From the NCBI GenBank assembly GCA_034687125.1, contig JAQGBZ010000507.1:1-38004 (forward strand): a DNA stretch of 38,004 nt, given 5' to 3'. This DNA is from Neelides folsomi. Taxonomy: Eukaryota; Arthropoda; Collembola; Neelipleona; Neelidae. The number at the start of each line of letters is the position of its first letter. Position 1 is the first letter of the stretch. The notes under the pieces are model-generated. The model had not been told where the DNA came from, did not search any database, and saw only the letters and a program-made list of their open reading frames with translations. Position numbers and translations under genes: made by a program. This document shows positions 357-38,004 of this stretch, piece after piece.

Positions 357-2158
357 TCTGTTAATAAGCAGCCATTTTTATTTGAGAGTATTATTATTGG
401 AGTAATGTTGTAAAATATGGTAAGTCGTATATCAGTCATATTTGAGTAAGCTGAGTCAAATTTATGTTTTGAGAAGTACATCATATAGATGTTTTTAGAG
501 CGGACAAACCCCACCTCATATAATCATTCCAGTACTAGAATATGACTGTTTTAAAACAATTCTGGTTGCTTGGGTAGTATCCAATTTTGAGAAATGCATT
601 CAATATATTTATCCTGACAAATATATTATAAAACAAATATATTTTGAGAGCAAATATTTTATAAAACAAGATTTTTATTTTTTTTAAAATTCCTTTTTAA
701 TTCCCAAATTTAAAGAAGTTTATATAAGAATTTTTGAAAGTGGAATTTATAATATATAGGAAGAAGGATTTCTTAACAAGCTCACAATTTTGAAATACCT
801 TAGCAATGAAGAAAATTTGAAATTTAATAAAATAAATACTTTTAAAAGCCTCAACAAACCTAAATTTATATACAATCCAAAGCAACTCAATGTTAAAAAA
901 TATATTCTTTTTTAATAATTACCTTATATTTATTATTATTTTCAAGTTTCATTTTATCCCTGGAAGTTTTTTATTAAAAATATTTTCCCAACAAATTATT
1001 TTCCAATATTGGTTTTAATAATATTTTTTAAACAAGGCCATTTTTTGTATCAAAAATACCTTTATAAATTTTAAAAATTATTATTTTAAGTATAAATTCA
1101 ATTTTAATGGGTTTTGCATTGAGATTTTCTTAAAAGGAAAAATTATTTTTGTTAATAGCTTTACATCCTTAAAATCTTTAATACATTGGAAAAATTAATT
1201 AAGATTCGAGAAGTGTAATATGAAAATCCAAGCCGTAACATTAACTAAGTCCATTTCACAAACTTATGAAGCCAAGTTATAATTAGCAACACATGTAATT
1301 CCGGACAAACTCAGCTTTATTAGTTTGTGAAATGGACTTTAATACTAGTATGGTATATGTATCCATGTAATGTAGTTTCGCTCGTGATAAATCTAAAAGT
1401 TTCGCTTTGAATATCAATCTAATTTATCATGGGGTTTAGTGATGATGTCGGAAATAAGAATAGAAAGATCAATAACTGAATAACTGAATAATTCAATGTA
1501 ATACTATATAAGATTATAACATAGAATCAAGTAATAAACATGCAATAGTAAATGTGAGCGGTAATAACCGCTCATTATTAGCATTATTTTATGATGGCTT
1601 TCATCTTGAGCTTGAGTTCGCTTTCCAATCTGAACTCATTCAATCCACCATTCATTCTCATTTCCGTGGACTCAAAAATCTCACCACAATCACCTGCATT
1701 TATTTGAAGTTAATTTATTTCATTTTTCTTTTAAATATTATCCCTAAACATTGTGATGTATAATAGTTATTTATCATTATTTTTTATTTAACTTTTACTA
1801 ACTCGATTCCCTTTATGAGTTATTATCATCATAATAAGCAAAATCTATTTTAGAATTTTACGTTGACCTGCCTAATTTTTAAAAAAATTTACAATTTTTA
1901 TAGTTAGGACAAATAAAATATTAATTTAAAATATTATAACAATTACCAAAAATCATTCTATACAATTGTTCAACTATAATTATTAGGGTATATTCCAGTA
2001 TACTTAAGTTGTAAAATAAATTATATTTTTGCAAATAATGTCGTTATTTTATTGTAAAACAAAACAAAAGCAGTATTTAATAAATGTATATTCTACTATT
2101 ATAAACTACGCGTGTAATTTATGTGCAATATGCAATTCCATTTTTATTTTATTTACAG
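357..2158. other. Intergenic stretch, no gene seen
   Basis: AT-rich, with many stops in all frames. The only clear structure is the inverted repeat at 1247-1339, listed separately. Short ORFs at 1554-1763 and 2029-2235 have biased composition and no recognisable motif. The last part, up to 2158, ends in a good splice acceptor (TTTATTTACAG), so the 5' untranslated exon and first intron of the next gene probably lie here. Confidence 0.6.
1247..1339. repeat. Small inverted-repeat element (MITE-like)
   Basis: The arm AAGTCCATTTCACAAACT at 1247-1264 is matched in reverse complement at 1322-1339, giving an 18-base perfect stem around a 57-base loop. The size and shape fit a MITE or a solo hairpin. 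I could not fix a target-site duplication. Confidence 0.6.
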
Positions 2159-3181
2159 ATGAGCAAATTTTTGTATTTGCTCTTTTTTATTCAAATAATA
2201 AAAGGACAAAATTGCAATATTCCGTTCCAATATGAATCACAAATTCCCGGGGAATGTTTAAATGAAACACAAGAAATTGCCCAACAAGGATTTTCATATA
2301 TTCCAAATCACCATAGTAACGGGACTGTTTATATAATCGGGGACGTAAATACAGTTTTACAAGGAAAAGTCCTGCAAGAAACAGTGAAAAATTATTGGAA
2401 GGCTGAAGACTTAATTGGATTTGGTGCCAGTGCAATTGGATCTTTAAATGGATTAGGAGAAGGATTTTATTCAAATGGATTCGCCTATGTTCGAACAACT
2501 GACAACGGAACAGTAAAATATTTCCAAACAATTAAATCACCAAAATTTCGATCTCCGTTTTCCGTCTTTGTTAAACAAAATATGATCCCAGATGGAAGTG
2601 CCCAATTTGAAGAAAGAAGAACCAAAAACATAACGCTTTTTGATTTTTACACAAATGTTTATAAATCTGTGGGAAAAGTTCCATTTTGTTATTATGGATG
2701 CGCAGAATTTAGGCAGATGGACGCCATCGCAGTTTCTAAGGCGCCGATTTACGGAGAACCTTTGTTTGGGAATGTGACTGAAGGATATTACACAAAACCA
2801 AATTTTCAAATACAAAATATTTTTGCTAATGTTTTTGGCTGTGTCGCGAATTTTAGTCGCGTGAGTGATCCAAAATTGTTAGCCAAATTGAGTAAGGCGC
2901 TTTATGTAAATCCTTTGGATTTGGGTTCTGCAAGTCAATTGCAAGTTCACAGCCACAGCTTAAGTGTTAGACATTGCGACAATGAAAATGAACAAAATCC
3001 AGGAGATGTTTACCATCTTTTGTCAAATGCGACAATAAAATTTATTAAAGCGCGGATATTCAAAATTGATTCATCTGAAAAACTCGTTGAATATTCAAAT
3101 AACGGTTCGCAGAGTAATTCCAAAATTTTAACTTCTTTTTGCATTTTTATTTTATTCGTTATTATAAATGTAAATGTGTAA
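2159..3181 (+). CDS. Secreted, GPI-anchor-type protein resembling alpha-acetolactate decarboxylase
   Basis: 340 aa, single coding exon. The start at 2159 is chosen because the ATG directly follows a strong splice acceptor (TTTATTTACAG) and opens a good signal peptide (residues 1-16, hydrophobic FLYLLFFIQII). The body follows the order of the bacterial/fungal alpha-acetolactate decarboxylase fold: a strand VYIIGDVNTVLQGK (57-70), then GFGASAIGSLNGLGEGFY (87-104) like the family's GDFGLGTFN-LDGE segment, then SPFSVF (132-137) like its TPFAVV, then FCYYGCAEFRQM (176-187), then an HxH pair (H264, H266) where the family binds zinc. E101 would be the conserved Glu. The third zinc His and the active-site Arg have no clear counterpart, and about 30 residues are inserted before HxH, so activity is doubtful. 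The C-terminus has a small-residue linker (NNGSQSNS) and a hydrophobic tail ending at the last residue, typical of GPI attachment. AATAAA lies at 3220-3225. The fold call is by eye; role unknown. Confidence 0.55.
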   Translation: MSKFLYLLFFIQIIKGQNCNIPFQYESQIPGECLNETQEIAQQGFSYIPNHHSNGTVYIIGDVNTVLQGKVLQETVKNYWKAEDLIGFGASAIGSLNGLGEGFYSNGFAYVRTTDNGTVKYFQTIKSPKFRSPFSVFVKQNMIPDGSAQFEERRTKNITLFDFYTNVYKSVGKVPFCYYGCAEFRQMDAIAVSKAPIYGEPLFGNVTEGYYTKPNFQIQNIFANVFGCVANFSRVSDPKLLAKLSKALYVNPLDLGSASQLQVHSHSLSVRHCDNENEQNPGDVYHLLSNATIKFIKARIFKIDSSEKLVEYSNNGSQSNSKILTSFCIFILFVIINVNV

Positions 3182-3334
3182 AGTTAAATACAGTAATTAA
3201 CTTTTACCTGTTAAATCTTAATAAAACTGATTATTATAATTAATGTATAAAAATGATAAAATAGTGTATTTATACATATAATATTACAATACAACTTTAA
3301 TGATAATTAATGATACTTTGTTTCATATTTTTAA

Positions 3335-6300
3335 TTAGCATAAATTGGGTTTATTAAGAACTTCAGTTTTGTATTCTTTGATTAAATATTCATTAATTTG
3401 GAATTTTAACATATCAAAAGACGGACGATCCTCAGGAGCAATATTCCAACATTCAACAATGATTTGAAATCTAAATATTAAAAATGTTTATTTAATGATT
3501 GCTATTATTATTTTATCACATAATTTGATTAATTTTTTCAATTTACAATTCTTTCGATGCATGTTTTGGTTTTGTAAGCGTAAGGCCATTTTCAAGTTCT
3601 TCCACAAACTCCATGTTCCATGTATATCCAGGATAAGGAATATCCCCAAGGGAAAATATTTCCCAAAGTGTGATTCCAAATGACCAAACATCAGATGCAG
3701 TGGAAAATGAAAGATATTTGAGAGATTCGAAAGCCATCCAACGCCAAGGCAAAGGTTCCTATTGAAATAATGTCGAATAAATAACAAAAAATACAAGTTA
3801 ATTAAGAATTAAGAATTTAAAACACCAACCTGTTGTGTTTTAACATAATTTGAATATTCGTAAAGCTGTCTTGATAATCCAAAATCTGTAATTCGGATAG
3901 TTAGATCAAAATCTACAAGGATATTCCGAGTCGCTAAATCTCCATGTATAACCTTTGTAAAATATATTAAAATCTGAATTAAAAATTTATATCATATATT
4001 TTAATTATTAACTTTAAATTTTAAATATATTTTACTTTTTTACTACTGAGATAAGCCATTCCATTGGCGAACTGTTTTGCCCAAATCAACAATTGTTTTA
4101 TCCCAAAATATTTGGAAATGTTTTCCTCAGCAACAATGCTCATATAGTCTCTAAAGAAAAATAATAACACATATTTTATCATAAAATATTCAAATAATAA
4201 TTATTTAATTTAAATATTGATATTATGTTTTTTTTAAATTTTAATGAACCAACGTTGAATCAAGAAAGTAGTTTTTATTATTTCTCAAATAACTCTCCAA
4301 AGATCCATGCGGTAAGTATTTGACAAAAACATAGACAATTCCTGTATAGTGAATAATTAGTAATTTTTCTAATTATGATCTAATTACGATTTCTAATCTC
4401 TTACTTTTAGTAATTTTTCTACTCTCGTATAAAAAATGCACAGCTTTATTTTTATATGATTTTTTTAAATAAAACCTTTTGATAATTCTTTTGTGTAGGC
4501 TCCAACAATTTCAATTAAATTTGGATGATTTCCCAAATATATCATAATTTTAAGTTCGGAGAGAAGAGCTTTAAGATATTGTTTTTCAGAGTTTCTCTTT
4601 AACGTTTTGACAGCAACTACTTCATTATCGACACAACCTTTAAGAACTAATCCAAAAGCTCCAGAACCAAGAACTGATGTAAAATCTATATTTTATTAAT
4701 AAAATGTAATTATGAATTATATACGAGGTAATTTTGTAATATAAACAGGTGAACAAATATCCAAACAATTCTTATTAAATTATTTAAAGTACCAATTTTA
4801 AATCTTCGTTGAGAAATTTCATATTCGCCAGTATATTTGCAAAGTTGAGCAAAATCATGCGCATATTCATAATTACTTCCACCAACGTCTTGTTTTAATC
4901 CTTTTATAAATTCTTCAATTTCTTGTTTTGTGAGTCCACTCTATAAAATTTAATTAATTTTGCAAATAAACATATTACATATTTACTATTATATTACAAT
5001 ACATTTTATTTATATGTAAATGTAAACCTTTTCTGTGCGGAAAAATTTAATGTAAACATAAGCTCCGATGAATGTCAAAAGAAAAACAACAACAGGTATG
5101 GTAATGATTGAAGCTAAATCTGTTTTCGATTCTATGCATAATAAAACATTGTAAATCAAATCATCTGTTTAAATAAATTTCTAAACTCCATGGATATTTT
5201 GAATTACTGTCAATTGTAACAATAAATTCTTTTTCGTCAGTTCCAAACTGGCTCATGGCAACACATTTATAACTTCCCGCTGAAGATTTTATCAAATCAA
5301 ATGCCAGAATTAAAGTTTTTCCGTCAGGTGAATCAGAAGCGCCAGTTCCAAGTTTCTATAGAAAAATATTAGTAATGTTCAATATTTCTTTATTTTAAAA
5401 CCGTCTACATAATATATACTAATATGGTATATACAGAGTATTTACTTTGAAGTGTCCTTTTCTAGATTATTTTGAATTTAAAAAAGCACACTACAAAGTA
5501 AACAGGCTGTATATGCCATATGTATATACAGGTTGTATTTCTTAAAATTCCACTGTATATACAGTACATATTGCAAATATTATCTAACAATTTCATCTTT
5601 TATAAAATATATTTCAAGTGGTGGAGATCCAACAGATGTGCATGTGATGCTTCCTTTCCCTAAACCTTCAACGAAACTGTGTTTTAAATTTGTAGAAGTT
5701 ATACTTGGTGGAATTCCCTCTAAAATAAAAGATTTATTGTTTTATCTTATAAACATAAACATTAATAATTAGCATATAAATCTTGTTTATTATATCTCTA
5801 AATTACTTGAAAGTGACACAGGCATTGAAATATTTCTCCAATCTTTAGAATACCAATAAGAGGCTGAGCAATAGATTCGATCAATGTCAATTGCAAATAC
5901 TTTAGAAAAATTTGAAAAATCGCGGTCCAAATTATAGTCAATGAATTCTAAATTAATTCATTTGTTATATTGTTAAATATGAAATTTAACTTGTTCAGTT
6001 TTAGTATTTTTTTGTACCTTTTATTATGGATCCATTTTTCCTTCTTGTATACCAAACAACAGGTCTCGACACAACCGGAATGTTCACTTTACAAGAATAA
6101 CTTATCATTGTGTCAGCAAAAAGTTCGTTTGTTGTTAGTAAATTTAATTCAAAATGGACACTAATTTTCGAACTTGTTCTGTCAAATTCTGACCAATCTT
6201 TAAATTCATAAAAAGTATAATTTATACTCAAATTATTAAATTATGGAAAATTTGTAAAATGATTAAAAGACAAACTTTTTCCATATCCAAACAACTTTGC

Positions 6301-8212
6301 ATTCTTAACATCAACTGAGCATCCAAATTCTGTAAGTTTGTTATAGTGGCCATTTCCACAATACACCGTGGCCATTCTTAAAATTGTTCCACTTACAATT
6401 TTCATTTTAGATATCAATGAATCCCAATCCATTGTCTTTCGAGCTGTGTAACTTCGGTTATAATAAATCTATATTAATTTAAAATTCAGCAATTTTTATC
6501 CCATTCATATAAATAATTTCATAATAATAATCTTAGGCATTCTATTTAATATTTTAATATAGAATTTATAGATATAGTTTAATTTTAAGAAACTGTTAAA
6601 TATATACAGGTAAAGCAAATTGTTGTCGAAGTCGCATAAATCCAAAGTTTCCCGCCGGAACGTAAATCAATTGTTTCTCTAAAGTTTTATTGTCTGTTTC
6701 AATAATGCACGTTGGGTTGACGACTGTGTTAACTTTTTTGTCTTCTCTCTCGGAATCAATCGTAAAATAGTTATCAACATCAGAAAAACTTGTGTCTTCA
6801 AACCCATACAAACCTGATAAATAAGCATTAAATTAATTAAATTAAATTAAAATTTAGATTATTAATACAAAAGATTAAACTAATTTAATTTATTAATGAT
6901 AATGTAATAAAAAATAATTGAACGTTTTAATTTCTTCTGATGTGTAATTGTGAGAGAATCGACTTCCACATTGTTCAAATATAAGCTGCATATAAAATCC
7001 CCATAATAATTTTTTCCATTAACAATTTCAATATAAAATCCTTCTATGGCATTATGCGTGATATTTTCGTCATTTATTAAATTGCTTGAAATATTCACAA
7101 TTGTTCCTAAATGACTCGAAACGCAAGGAATTAATAAATTGTTATCAACAATTTTAGCAACAGTTCTATTGTTTCGTAAAAATTCTGGTTTCGTATTTTC
7201 TATAAAAACGTTAATTAAAAATGTTTTATTTTTATTAAGATTTTTTATAACATTAACATTTTTGTTAGTTTTTTAATGTGGTTTAAATGTGAATTAATAA
7301 AAATATATATGGAATAATAAAAGAAATTAACCTTCTTCAAGAACTAAATAAAAAGATGTCCCAATTGAATGATCAAATATCCCTGGAAACGTGTAATTTC
7401 CTGTTCGAGGGTAATCATGTTTAATTTGATATGGAATTCCATCATTTGGATCGTCATAGAGATTATTGTTCGGATTATTATAATATTGATAAAGAGCATT
7501 GACACTGTAAACTTTTACTTCAACAACATATTGGTCATTTGATTCATTTGTGTGATTTGATTCTTTTTCCACTTCCTTCCACCATTCAACAAAAATTGCT
7601 TCATTGGGCTAAAATAAAGTTTAATTAATTATACACTAATTAGCTAATTTGAAGTCAAAAGTCAATAATATCATTTCTCAAACCTTCCTTTATAAATTAT
7701 TAAATTAGAAAAACTTTTAATTGCTCAATTGGAAAATTGTGGATTTTCATTATGGGTATAATATTTATATTATAAGTTTATTGTACTTATTATAAGTATT
7801 ATTACTTATAGTATTACAATTGAATATATAATTATGTATGTGCAAAATATTATCTTTATTATCTTGTCACTTTATTTTTAATCATTTAATAACTTACTTG
7901 AATTCCATAATATATAAAGTCAATGGGATAAGTTGCGGAGCACGTAATTTTGAACACATCAAAATCTCCATTAAGTCTTAAGATTTTAACACCTTGATTT
8001 TCCAAACATCTTGGTGTTATTTTATCAGCGGATGAGATCTTTATTTCAAATTCGCAATTTGGTTCAGATATTAAATTAAAGCACGAATTTGCTTCTAAAA
8101 ATGGTTTAAACTCCTTATCGGGAACTATTTGATCAACAACAACGTTGGAAGCCTTAGCGATTTTAATGTGAAATAGAAAATAAAATAAAATGATTTTAAA
8201 TAAAATTATCAT
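3335..8212 (-). CDS. Receptor tyrosine kinase with Ig-like ectodomain (PDGF/VEGF-receptor / VER type)
   Basis: Complete 17-exon model, 989 aa, phase-consistent throughout. Exons: 8212-7898, 7608-7332, 7199-6924, 6813-6608, 6435-6276, 6197-6018, 5947-5807, 5719-5589, 5355-5208, 5131-5028, 4940-4793, 4685-4476, 4341-4254, 4150-4036, 3952-3830, 3758-3547, 3470-3335. Residues 1-20 are a signal peptide. Residues 21-610 hold several Cys-paired Ig-like domains (e.g. SYSCKV, GSITCTS, SYKCVA). One TM helix lies near 617-640. The kinase spans about 697-975: loop GSGAFG (702-707), VAVK Lys722, Glu739, HGDLATRN (Asp838, Asn843), DFG (856-858), C-lobe [10 protein letters not shown]. Oddities: HRD is HGD, APE is AFE, and the kinase insert of class III receptors is missing. 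Acceptors of exons 5 and 6 (GAAAG, TTTAAAG) are weak but are the only ones that keep frame; reading through the 78-nt intron 5 would hit TAA at 6241-6243. Expected role: growth-factor signalling at the plasma membrane. The exact subfamily is inference. Confidence 0.85.
5423..5520. repeat. Hairpin element inside RTK intron
   Basis: Arms of about 39 bases (5423-5461 and 5481-5520) are imperfect reverse complements. They share TATGG.ATATACAG and TTTACTTTG with only a few mismatches, around a 19-base loop. It sits in the intron 5356-5588 and does not disturb the splice sites. Probably a short MITE. Confidence 0.55.
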
Positions 8213-32292: not shown

Positions 32293-32845
32293 CAACTTTA
32301 AAAAGAATCTGTTATTCTTTTAGGAAATCCCAACTAATTGGATTGTTTTTATTGAAATAAGGAACCACTTTTATACATAGAATTTCGATTGTCCAGTATG
32401 TAAATTTTCTACTTTAAAGAATTGAATAAATTTAAAAACGTTATATAAATTGGTTTTAAATAAAATTTTCTCGAAATTTTTTGACATGATACTTAATCAA
32501 TCAATATTATAAATTCATTACAGAATTTCGCTATTAAAATTAAGATTTACTTACTAAATTGTGTGGTAATAAATGTTGTACGTGTTAAAGTTTAAGTTTA
32601 GGTTAATATATTTACAGTTTAAGTTATACAAATTTAAGTTATACAATTTTTATTACGTTTCGTTTTTGTAAATATATATTGATTTCTTCATAAAATCAAA
32701 CAGAATTTAATTTAAACTAATGTAAATAAGAACTCGACAAACATTTATTTGAAAATATAGTACATAACTAAAAAACAATTGTATTGGTAAATAATTTTAC
32801 GTAAGATACCGATTTATTATTTAGTTTATCTACAAAAAATTTAAA
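32293..32845. promoter_or_regulatory. FASN: Upstream region of fatty acid synthase
   Basis: 553 AT-rich bases between the foldback element and the FAS start codon, containing the presumed promoter. Several near repeats of GTTTAAGTT(A)TACA (32600-32650) are visible. No specific site can be named. Confidence 0.35.
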
Positions 32846-35800
32846 ATGGACACGATAAAAAATTCAGAAATATCGACTTATGTTGAAAATAAAGAAAAAA
32901 TTGTGATTTCTGGCATTTCTGGCCGATTTCCTGAATCTGACAATATGGACGAATTTAAAGACAATCTTTTGAAAAACATTGATATGGTTACTGAAGATGG
33001 GAGACGTTGGAGTCCTGGAATTTTCGATATCCCCAAAAGATGTGGAAAATTGAATGAATTGGACAAATTTGACGCAGAATTTTTTGGAATTCATGCAAAG
33101 CAGACAAATCGAATGGATCCACAATTAAGAATTCTTTTGGAAACAACTTATGAAGCAATCTTGGACTCTGGTATTTTAGTCAAATTTTGTAATATATAAT
33201 TAAAATATGATTTTGGTAAAGTCTGGCAACTACAACCTACAACACTACAAGTTAAGGCTCAAATTGACGCAAAAGTATACATATATACACTTAATATACT
33301 GCCCAAAAAGTCCATTCATCTATGTATATTGTATATGAAAATGCTAATTGATGAGATACGATAATTTTATAATTAGTTTATCTTTAAGACGCATTTGTTT
33401 TTTTCATTTTGTTTTTTTCACCAAGGTGAGGGTGGTGAATGCTCCATGGTGAAGGTGGTGAGTTCTCTGGTGAATCCTGCACTCACCAAGATTTTCCTGT
33501 TTTATATAGAGCTCAACATGGTGAAGAACTCACCATGGAGGGCCTGGTGAAAACTGGTGCACCATGGAGTCTCCATGTATAACATGGAGCTCAACATGGT
33601 GAGTTTTCATGGAGTTCACCATGTAAAATTGTCTCCATGGTGAAAGATATATTTAAATGGAGCAACAGTCTATCAATATGGATAATGTTTAGCTGGAGAT
33701 ATGAAAATATACATTACTTCACCATGGTTAAAGCTAATATTCCATGGAAAATCCATGGTTCACCATGGTGAGCCGAGCTCGTAAATTCTCGCCCATTTTT
33801 TAATTAATATATTGAGAATAAAATTGATAACATATTATAAATATAATTTTAGTGGTATTTTTTATATTTATAAAATTATGATAAAATTTAAAATTAATAC
33901 GTTGGCATTTTTATTTTGTAGGGATTAACCCTTCAACAATTAGAGGAAAGAAAATTGGAGTTTTTATAGGAGCGTCTATTAGCAACACTGATGAAGCTTG
34001 GAGTTATGAAAATATTTCTGATAATGGATATGGAATGACTGGATGCAACACCTCCATGTTTTCAAATAGGGTATCCTTTTCTTTTGATTTCAAGGGTCCA
34101 AGTTTAACTCTTAACACGGCCTGCTCTTCGGGTCATTTCGCTCTTGACCAAGCTGTGACATCAATAAGAATGGGGAAATGCGAAGCCGCCATTGTTGGAG
34201 GCGTCAATTTAGTAATTTTACCTGAGACATCACTACAGTTCAAAAATCTTAATATGCTAGCAAACGATGGAAAATGTAAATCTTTTGATGCTAAAGGTAA
34301 ATTTGTAATTATTTAATTTAATAATTTCAATTTTTTATTTGAATTATCTAAATACATTTTTTGATTTCCCAATAACACAACTTAATGTCCAAGACGCGGA
34401 TCTTGGCAGACGTTTTTTTAAATTACCTTCCCTTTAATTTATTAAAAAGCCGAGAAAATGAGTAATTTGGGAAAATATAGTAACAAAGTCATTAAACATG
34501 TAAGATACTTTTTAGTGAATTGCCATGTAATTTTAGTAAACAGTTTTTTAATTCCAATTTAGGGTAAAAACGTCTGCCAAGATCCGCGGCTTAAAATACA
34601 ATTCCGAAAACAATCTAACCTTTCACTTCGTTTTTATAAAAAATTATTTATTTATCATTAATTTATTTCGCTAGTTTAGCTTCGTATTAGATTTGAATTT
34701 CTCATACTGACCGAAGCTGATAAAATAATGTAACTTACATGACATCAAAAGTCTACTTATTTACTTCGTTCAAAAGAAAATTATAGAGACAATTGTTCAA
34801 ACGGAATTAATGGAAATAAGAGAAATTTAATATTTGATATGACGCTAAACATATCAAGTTAACTGCTAGGTTCTTTTCAGTTCATTATAGAAATATTTAT
34901 ATAACAAAGTTAGAATATTTGTAAATAACTGTGTAAATAATTAAATAATATAATGTCTATTAGATATGTACTATACTCGGTATATGCATATATGTTAAAT
35001 ATTAAAAATTGTATACATCTGTAGGAAATGGATATGTGAGAAGTGAAGCTGTGGTTGCGATTTATATTCAAAAAGCACAAAATGCCAAACGGATCTATGC
35101 AACAATTATTAACACTAAAACTAATTGCGATGGGTTCAAAAAGGAAGGAATCACTTACCCTGGGCGAGAATCCCAAAAATTACTTTGCGAAGAAATTTAC
35201 TCTGAAGTGGGAATTAATCCAAGATTAGTATCATATGTTGAAGCTCATGGAACTGGAACTGAAGTAGGAGACAACGAAGAGGCAAATTCAATTTTACAAG
35301 TCTTTTGTAAAGATCGAAATGAAAAAAATCCACTTTTAATTGGATCTGTTAAAAGCAACATGGGGCATTCAGAACCAACATCAGGACTTTGTGGAATTGC
35401 TAAAATGATTGTTGCGATGCAAACTGGAATTATTCCAGCTAATTTATGGTATGAAAACCCAATTTCTGCAATTGAGAACAGTAATAAAATTAAGGTAATT
35501 TAAAAATTAGTTAATTAATATAAAATTTGTAAAATACAAATATCAAATTAATGACCAATAAACACAAATATGTATTAAAATGATTTAATAAGGTTGTAAA
35601 TAAAAACATGAAATGGGATGGCGAAATTTTTGGAGTGAATTCATTTGGATTTGGAGGAACAAACTCACACGTGATACTTCAAACTTATCCAAAAAATGAA
35701 AAAGAGAATATAATAAATACATCTATTCCGGTTATAATTCCACTATCTGGGAGAACTAAAGAATCAGTAAACCATCTAGTTCGTTCACTGACCTTACAAA

Positions 35801-37823
35801 ACAAATGTTTTAATGGACTTTTGCATGAAATATTTCTCCAAGATATTCCTGGTCATCTATTCAGAGGATATTTAATCCAAAATGATGAAATAACTGAAAC
35901 ATTAATAGAAAAAGTGGAAGATTTCAAAAGACCTATTTGGTTTATTTGTAATGGAATGGGAAGTCAATGGAGTGGAATGGGAAAAGAACTTTTTATTTTT
36001 GAAGCATTTGAATATTCTATGAAAAAATCAGCAAAAATTCTTGAAAAATTTAATTTTGACCTTCTTGGATTAATTGAAAATGGAAAGGAAATTGATCAAT
36101 CCAACATTTTGAATTCTACAATTTCCATAATTGCAATTCAGATTGCACTTGTTGATCTTTTAACTTCTCTTGAAATTGTTCCTCATGGGTTTATTGGACA
36201 TTCAGCAGGTGAATTTATTTGCGCTTATATTGATGGATGTTTCACTGTAGAACAAATTCTTTATTTGGCTTATGCAAGATCTTTGTTACTTCTTGAGGCA
36301 AAACTCCCATTGGGTGGAATGGCTGCTGTTGGATTAACCTGGGAAGAAGCTCAAACCATGTGCCCAATTGACATTACTGTTGCTTGTCACAATTCTCAAG
36401 ACTCTGTAACTCTTTCAGGCCCCGTTGAATCAATTAAAAAAATTGTTCAATTTCTCACAAATCAAGGAATTTTTGCAAAAGAAATTAATTCCTCAGGAAT
36501 TGCTTTTCATAGCAAATACATTGCCGAAATTATTCCAAAATTTCGTGAAATTGCAGAGGGAATAATTAAAAAGCCACTTGAAAGGTCTTCAAAATGGATT
36601 TCATCGTCATTCACAAAATCACTTTGGAATTCATGTGGAAAATATGCATCAACAGATTATTGCATAAACAATGCTCTTTCTCCAGTTTTATTTTATGAGG
36701 TAATTTTTCTTATAATTTTGAAATTTAAATAAATATATAATTTTAAAACATTAGATTGTAGAGATAAAATACGTCTTTAATAATATATTTATTAATTTAT
36801 ATAATCTTTCCACATACAATTAGTGTACTTGGTGGGCTATAATTTTTTATACAATTGTTTATTTAAAAAAAGTATGCATGTTATGGACCGTATGTAACAT
36901 AAAAACAACAAAAAATTTATATGGATACCATAACATTATTACAGTGATAACTCTTTTTGTAGAAAAATTGTATACCTTTCTTTTGTTTATTTAGCGACAC
37001 ATGTTCTTATGGCATTTTTTAATTTTTTTTTTATTAAAGGCACTAAAGGAAGTCCCAGGAAATGCAATTGTTATAGAAATTGGGCCACATTGTATTTTTC
37101 AATCAATTCTAAAGAGAACTCTCGGAGTAAATACAATCAACATAGGGCTAATGAATCGTTTTAAAGAAAATGCAAAAAATATTTTGAATGCAATTGGCAG
37201 AATTTATACTTCTGGAAAAAATCCAAATATTTTAAAATTATACAAACATTTTGAATTTCCGGTTCCCATTGACACACCTTCAATCAGTTCACTTGTAAAA
37301 TGGGATCATTCAACTTCATGGGATGTGGCATCATTTTACAATGGAAAGCATTCTCCGCGTGACAATTCAATAGAAATTTCCTTGTCAGACGAAAATTACA
37401 GTTTTTTAAAAGATCATGTAATTGATGGGAGGATTCTATTTCCTGCTACAGCATACATTTATTTAATTTGGAAAATGTTTGCTAAACTCCATTCAACAAC
37501 AATTGATAAAATGCCAGTGGTTTTTGAAGACATTTTCATCAAAAGAATTACAATTATGAAAATTGATGAACCAACAAAAGTTTTCATCAATTTTATCGAA
37601 GGGTCGGATGAATTTAAAATATTAATTGATGGATTATTAACTGTGAATGGCAAAATTCGAGTGCATGAAAAGTTATTAAATGAATTTACGAATGTTACAA
37701 ATTGCGACATGAACGAAAATAATTCATTCACTCTGGACGCTTCTGATTTTTACAAGAAGATTAGATTAAGTGGACTAGAACATTGTGGGAAATTCAGAGC
37801 CGTAAAATCAATGAGCAGTGACG
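32846..37823 (+). CDS. FASN: Animal type I fatty acid synthase, N-terminal KS-MAT-DH part (continues past window)
   Basis: Five exons visible: 32846-33170, 33922-34296, 35025-35494, 35593-36699, 37040-37823; 1,020 codons, all in phase, open at the last donor (GTAAGA at 37824). Ketosynthase: residues about 18-415, with SGRFPESDNM, active-site Cys176 in NTACSSG, His in EAHGTGT and in SNMGHSE, and GFGGTNSHVIL. Acyltransferase: GMGSQWSGMG, nucleophile Ser594 in GHSAGE, AFHSKY, IEIGPH. Dehydratase: starts near 860, His885 in KDHVIDGRILFPATAY. This order is that of the cytosolic animal FAS, which makes palmitate from acetyl- and malonyl-CoA. The residue before TAC in the KS motif is Asn, where most FAS have Asp, and Gly-His follow the Ser pair. 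Intron 1 carries the CACCATGG-rich tract and intron 2 a MITE. The remaining domains lie to the right. Insect-style genomes hold several FAS paralogues; which one this is cannot be told. Confidence 0.93.
33421..33777. repeat. CACCATGG-rich palindromic tract, copy B (FAS intron 1)
   Basis: Eight CCATGG sites plus many CAACATGGTGA, CTCCATGGTGA and GGTGAA words fall in about 360 bases, ending in CACCATGGTGAGCCGAGCTCG. The word family matches 24138-24371, but the order differs, so this is a related, diverged array rather than a plain copy. It lies fully inside FAS intron 1 (33171-33921). Unlike copy A it is not flanked by the 69-bp repeats. Confidence 0.75.
34395..34588. mobile_element. MITE in FAS intron 2
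   Basis: CGCGGATCTTGGCAGACG with trailing Ts (34395-34417) is inverted at 34566-34588. The repeats are 23 bases and perfect, around a 148-base AT-rich middle. CTTAA occurs just outside both ends (34381-34385 and right after 34588), so a TTAA-type duplication is possible but not clean. No coding content. Confidence 0.7.
36700..37039. other. FAS intron 4
   Basis: 340-base intron between the acyltransferase exon and the next. AT-rich, with no repeat or ORF recognised; donor GTAATT, acceptor TTTATTAAAG. Confidence 0.6.
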
Positions 37824-38004
37824 GTAAGATTCTTTTTTATAAATTAATAATTTTAAGTAGTGTTATTTTATTGTATAATTAATTTAATTTTATTATATAT
37901 TAATTATATTTAAAAATTAGTTAACATATAATGTGTTTCTTAGGTGCTTAATTGGTTTATGCAGTGGTATGGATGTGTAAATGGGTGTTGAATGGCTGAG
38001 TGTA
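37824..38004. other. Right edge: FAS intron and unresolved sequence
   Basis: Begins with the donor of FAS exon 5. An AG at 37942-37943 could be an acceptor, but the sequence behind it hits a stop in the required phase (GAC G-GT GCT TAA). I therefore cannot place the next exon, and it may lie beyond the edge. Confidence 0.4.

Follow-up and report, generated by a model that had tools for sequence, protein, structure and literature searches.

An unnamed sister family of alpha-acetolactate decarboxylase represented in the genome of the collembolan Neelides folsomi

Results and Discussion

A stretch of 38,004 nucleotides from the collembolan Neelides folsomi (assembly GCA_034687125.1, contig JAQGBZ010000507.1, positions 1 to 38,004; hereafter the window) carries a gene that an earlier, sequence-only reading had described as encoding a secreted protein resembling alpha-acetolactate decarboxylase (ALDC). 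The 340-codon open frame described there was found intact at 2159..3181 on the forward strand, the coordinates including the stop codon, and its product, P0001, has 340 amino acids. Our analysis gives good support to P0001 as an arthropod protein that genuinely belongs to a sister family of ALDC, so far without a name. The gene and the features at its ends are as follows.

2159..3181, + strand: coding sequence of P0001, the ALDC-like protein, in a single exon (open reading frame, whole-genome match, paralog, and ratio of nonsynonymous to synonymous substitution rates, dN/dS)
2159..2209, + strand: hydrophobic leader, a candidate signal peptide at about residues 1-17 (hydropathy)
3125..3178, + strand: C-terminal hydrophobic tail, residues 323-340, resembling a glycosylphosphatidylinositol (GPI) signal or a membrane anchor (hydropathy)
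2156..2158, + strand: cag adjoining the ATG, candidate 3' splice site of an intron in the 5' untranslated region (sequence; same in the paralog)

Both ends of P0001 are hydrophobic, in line with the signal peptide and GPI-type tail described earlier. The best 11-residue hydropathy mean was 2.59 in the N-terminal leader and 3.28 in the C-terminal tail, with no charged residue beyond the tail. A helix at residues 327-338 was predicted in the tail with low confidence. These features are consistent with a protein that would be secreted and anchored, and a hydrophobic tail with no charge after it resembles the C-terminal signal of GPI-anchored proteins. The coding sequence was confirmed as one open frame, and the spliced 5' end proposed along with it is a candidate: cag also lies directly 5' of the ATG in the paralog (L002 1498-1500), and its presence in both copies is as expected for a putative splice acceptor.

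Sequence relatives and the wider family

A protein search with P0001 returned 8 relatives at 37-51% identity. A profile search brought the total to 15, the 7 new ones being 26-45% identical, and P0001 as a single sequence matched no Pfam or NCBIfam model. The closest relatives are mostly nameless metagenome proteins. One relative, P0014, is a eukaryote transcript (GEZU01038761), and the closest named relative, P0015, comes from Candidatus Sumerlaeia, has a lipobox-like leader, and shares 36% identity over 255 columns. PBP2-like and GmhA-like genes, judged by eye from open reading frames, lie on the P0015 contig, and P0015 was therefore taken as a true bacterial gene.

Family members were present in 3 of 40 Sumerlaeota genomes: that of P0015, that of P0018 (secreted-type, 300-codon frame), and that of P0019, which has a STAS domain in front. 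Searching with these members gave 240 relatives at E ≤0.1 among 7,997 scored candidates, and PF01740 (STAS) was found in 108 of the 120 relatives among the matches listed. Named STAS-fused relatives come from Verrucomicrobia, Kiritimatiellae, Omnitrophota, Chitinophagales, and others, and are called merely STAS protein or anti-anti-sigma factor. P0019 (L017 982-2307) and its kin make up a large family in bacteria, in which an N-terminal STAS domain precedes an unannotated ALDC-like C-terminal domain with three histidines. This C-terminal domain aligned with the present family over 259 columns (E 2e-8), and the histidine triad was kept in the wider family alignment. Unlike P0001, these proteins have STAS in place of the leader and a regulatory layout. 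The STAS set was selected by an anchor motif (101 of 118 ids), 60 being used in the STAS profile and 25 in the merged alignment.

A secreted Sumerlaeota-type set was also recovered, consisting of P0015, P0021, P0064, P0077, P0081, P0108, P0119, and P0139; within it, sources name Sumerlaeota for P0015, P0021, and P0139 alone. These proteins are kin to P0001 in sequence, keep three histidines and the glutamate, and have hydrophobic leaders, but their function is unannotated, and the four of them that were measured (P0015, P0021, P0064, and P0119) have no C-terminal anchor. An anchor-like tail was seen in 8 of 14 window-like rows, including both arthropod copies. No relative was confirmed among 28 stretches in a scan of viral contigs, and one was confirmed among the 11 stretches that matched the single pattern of a genome-contig scan. 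The wider family is bacterial wherever sources name it.

Homology to ALDC

The proposed likeness to ALDC was supported by predicted fold and by profile comparison. The predicted model of P0001 has the ALDC fold across nearly the whole domain, the structural alignment stopping near residue 315. The sequence-only reading had suggested a PF03306 search, counting the lack of a match against itself, together with a structure prediction: P0001 as a single sequence did not match PF03306, and the predicted model showed the ALDC fold. None of the 35 family rows scanned matched PF03306 at E 1, and a search of PDB sequences with the family profile found no ALDC. Four PDB sequence hits of P0001 as a single sequence (E 0.04-2), to a small cyanobacterial protein, two sortases, and factor XII, resemble chance and were rejected.

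The first ALDC set held 12 sequences: four of eight Sumerlaeota loci, 7 plasmid-borne ALDCs, and B. subtilis AlsD. Those four loci were selected with an HxH-containing motif, so that their HxH is conserved by construction. A 15-row set added three loci found without the HxH motif, leaving out the partial L025, and gave the same outcome. Window-like rows alone reached the ALDC profile at a borderline E of 0.0003 (0.0086 without context). The merged family reached E 8.2e-7 with a score of 53.7, while 60 column shuffles reached at most 18.9. Against 15 ALDCs, the merged family gave E 6.9e-7, and removal of the window-like rows gave 7.4e-5 and 9.9e-5. The profile signal to ALDC thus rises on adding bacterial relatives. 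From the predicted model and these profiles, we consider it very likely that P0001 would adopt the ALDC fold and share descent with ALDC.

P0001 resembles ALDC (PF03306; AlsD/BudA; PDB 6j92, 5yho, 4bt2, and 5xne) in predicted fold, GE motif, and HxH register. It differs in lying below Pfam detection, in an extra stretch before HxH, in its leader and C-terminal tail, and in an ALDC arginine column without a basic residue. The earlier placement of P0001 inside PF03306, as a transferred ALDC, was not upheld, as no curated model matched it.

Sumerlaeota also carry true PF03306 ALDCs (L018-L024); inspection by eye gave lipobox-like leaders at 7 of the 8 loci, the partial L025 not being judged, and PF03306 was matched in 8 of 40 Sumerlaeota genomes. 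An extracytoplasmic location of ALDC may be typical of this phylum.

Candidate metal site

Residues were mapped onto ALDC in 30 profile alignments, made by pairing 3 sets of family rows with 2 of ALDCs under 5 settings; 24 of these alignments were extended and 6 default.

2459..2461, + strand: E101, matching the invariant Glu in the LDGE motif of ALDC (30 profile alignments)
2948..2956, + strand: H264-S-H266, two candidate zinc ligands (conservation and profile alignments)
3014..3016, + strand: H286 (VYHLL), candidate third zinc ligand (conservation and profile alignments)
2738..2740, + strand: K194 in VSKAPIYGE; Lys/Arg at 193 or 194 in 35/35 rows, off the ALDC Arg column
2846..2908, + strand: added stretch that ALDC lacks, preceding HxH at about residues 230-250 (alignment gap)

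In 30/30 alignments E101 coincided with E62 of ALDC, as numbered in B. subtilis, and it was kept in 33 of the 34 rows reaching it, P0005 having Asp. We take the LDGE glutamate to be the active-site E65 of Brevibacillus numbering. H264 and H266 were kept in all 34 rows reaching them; 28 of the 30 alignments placed them on H191 and H193 of ALDC, and the pair lay outside the remaining 2. These HxH histidines and a third histidine (GGH) are presumably the zinc ligands of ALDC; the zinc-site histidines were invariant in 12/12 ALDC rows, 4 of which had been picked by the HxH motif.

The earlier reading saw no clear third zinc histidine. H286, however, is a candidate for this ligand, being invariant in 16/16 rows of the narrow family alignment (P0001 included) and in the 34/34 rows reaching it in the wider one. 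Its register with ALDC is less even. H286 fell on ALDC H204 in 14 of 30 alignments, all within the 24 extended ones, elsewhere in 10 (2 global alignments, plus all 8 extended ones in which the family set was confined to window-like rows), and it lay outside the 6 default alignments. Of the proposed zinc site of H264, H266, and a third ligand, the HxH pair is in register with ALDC; for the third histidine the correspondence was found in 14/24 extended alignments. This variable placement of H286 weighs against the site, and we lowered our confidence slightly because of it. Conservation and the predicted fold still make a zinc site at H264/H266/H286 a likely prospect, and loss of the site is not supported, as the three histidines and E101 are conserved.

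The catalytic arginine of ALDC is presumably R145 in Brevibacillus numbering, R142 of B. subtilis, which was 0.92 conserved in the ALDC alignment. This column fell on I190 of P0001 (188 with window-like rows alone), and the conserved Lys/Arg at 193/194 lies three to six columns away; this does not amount to showing that the arginine is lost. The ALDC C-terminal segment carries a further active-site Glu. The insert before HxH noted earlier was seen as a gap in the ALDC alignments, and a helix was predicted inside it at residues 238-247.

Second copy and host genome

A paralog 69% identical to P0001 was found on contig C792 (L002 1501-2526). Over 336 codons, the pair gave a dN of 0.20, a dS of 1.20, and a dN/dS of 0.17, from which both copies appear to be maintained as proteins. 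This ratio, the paralog itself, and homologs at 26-51% identity in public sequence argue that the gene is not a chance product. The duplication extends beyond the gene.

2291..8151, no strand assigned: block duplicated on contig C792 (3161-10909), which comprises the ALDC-like gene and, in convergent orientation on the - strand, a kinase gene (blastn)

The two block copies aligned by blastn in pieces of 74-86% identity, and a kinase domain was matched in one piece of each. The ALDC-like gene and the convergent tyrosine-kinase-type gene fit one duplication event and are still adjacent in both copies. Third-position GC was 0.26 at 2159-3181 and 0.44 at L002 1501-2526; perhaps regional composition differs.

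The assembly, 75.1 Mb in 840 contigs, has arthropod-type signals, in keeping with the animal genome that had been proposed. On its mitochondrial contig of 15,157 bases, 22 tRNAs were called, the anticodon being unclear in one, and 12 protein genes were recognised from their frames, with tRNA-Leu(UUR) between COX1 and COX2, which we take to be the pancrustacean ancestral order. The COX1 sequence might be that of a springtail. PF00379, presumably the arthropod cuticle domain, had 39 matches in this genome and 0 in 14 control genomes. In the window, the neighbours are eukaryotic: NOL9, UNC-93, ketoacyl-synthase and acyltransferase pieces, a methyltransferase, and the kinase gene. The ketoacyl-synthase and acyltransferase pieces (32825-37882) resemble an intron-split animal fatty-acid synthase, with the contig end close by.

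Contamination or an assembly artefact could be suspected from the intronless coding sequence, from the bacterial source of the closest named relative, and from the paralog being less AT-rich (GC 0.42) than the window (0.29). The gene itself is AT-rich too (GC 0.34), however, and its second copy lies on another contig within the same duplicated block, beside the kinase gene. With the arthropod-type host signals and the eukaryotic neighbours, this makes contamination very unlikely.

Origin of the gene

A tree was built from 48 rows and 318 columns, leaving out the fragment P0008. Window-like rows, P0014, and P0015 formed one group (94/92, just below the starred level), with secreted Sumerlaeota-type rows and STAS rows falling outside it. 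P0015 had a long branch and only a tentative place. Holding window-like rows and P0014 together without P0015 was not rejected (p 0.35), nor was a group joining P0015 and P0017 to the remaining Sumerlaeota-type rows (p 0.11). Judged from sequence, the arthropod copies appear kin to a wider family that is bacterial where named, and the tree would fit either direction of transfer.

We regard horizontal transfer as the probable source of the gene, most likely directly from bacteria or via another eukaryote. The bacterial acquisition proposed earlier is thus plausible through the Sumerlaeota protein P0015 and the bacterial wider family; the nameless metagenome proteins among its closest relatives, and the eukaryote transcript P0014, make donor and direction less certain. 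P0014 would also suit a gene of long standing in eukaryotes that many lineages have lost, with P0015 the result of a eukaryote-to-bacterium transfer, as would the anchor-like tails of the window-like rows and the placement of P0015 among those rows in the tree. On the other side, the secreted Sumerlaeota forms and the STAS fusions are bacterial where sources name them, and besides this genome P0014 alone is marked eukaryotic, the metagenome rows being untraced to hosts. We consider this history unlikely, though with some weight. Descent without transfer from the animal C11orf54/PTD012 family (DUF1907, PF08925; PDB 1xcr), which has the same fold, is improbable. Members of the wider alignment gave no match to PF08925, with no clear sequence signal, and this family is represented by a distinct gene in this genome. 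That gene, at C527 27589-28990, was matched in five pieces and is another member of the same fold class. Transfer would remain the likely course, and the main idea of the sequence-only reading was right once corrected for the conserved candidate third ligand.

Proposed function

On balance, we favor P0001 being a secreted, probably surface-anchored zinc protein of ALDC fold, a member of a sister family of ALDC that is shared with bacteria, likely transferred, and since duplicated and under selection. The leader would direct P0001 into the secretory path, and the C-terminal tail would anchor it at the outer cell face. H264, H266, and H286 would hold zinc in an ALDC-type barrel with E101 adjacent, as conservation and fold suggest. 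More speculatively, the site might act on a small hydroxy- or keto-acid of microbes or food, by metal-assisted decarboxylation or a related step. We know of no acetoin pathway to be expected in an animal, and acetolactate itself is a doubtful substrate.

An active enzyme appears somewhat favored over a binding protein, since forms of very different layout keep the putative metal site. The STAS fusions count against this preference, sustaining a binding or sensing role as a serious, if less than even, possibility. The domain would then be a non-catalytic small-molecule binder, serving in the bacterial fusions as a sensor feeding STAS output and in the arthropod form as a surface or extracellular carrier, scavenger, or co-receptor. 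Against a binder, three histidines and a glutamate (one Asp exception) are kept in STAS-fused and secreted forms alike, more than plain binding seems to need. Our fullest proposal is tentative: an undescribed branch of the ALDC superfamily, comprising bacterial secreted proteins and STAS-coupled sensors, may have been turned into an arthropod surface zinc enzyme acting on extracellular microbial metabolites.

Conclusions

Among the literature matches for ALDC with Collembola or with arthropods, none concerned such a gene, judged by titles and the starts of abstracts. A search for ALDC with a STAS domain gave no literature match, and for ALDC with metazoa or horizontal gene transfer no title among the matches listed concerned an animal gene. 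Herein, our findings reveal an ALDC-type domain in an arthropod. They link proteins unnamed in the family libraries searched, from a STAS-fused family found across several phyla of bacteria to the secreted proteins of Sumerlaeota and to eukaryotic proteins that probably sit at the cell surface. Were the domain a binder alone, the STAS fusions would constitute small-molecule sensors of a new class. If it is active, a decarboxylase-type enzyme would face microbes on the animal cell surface.
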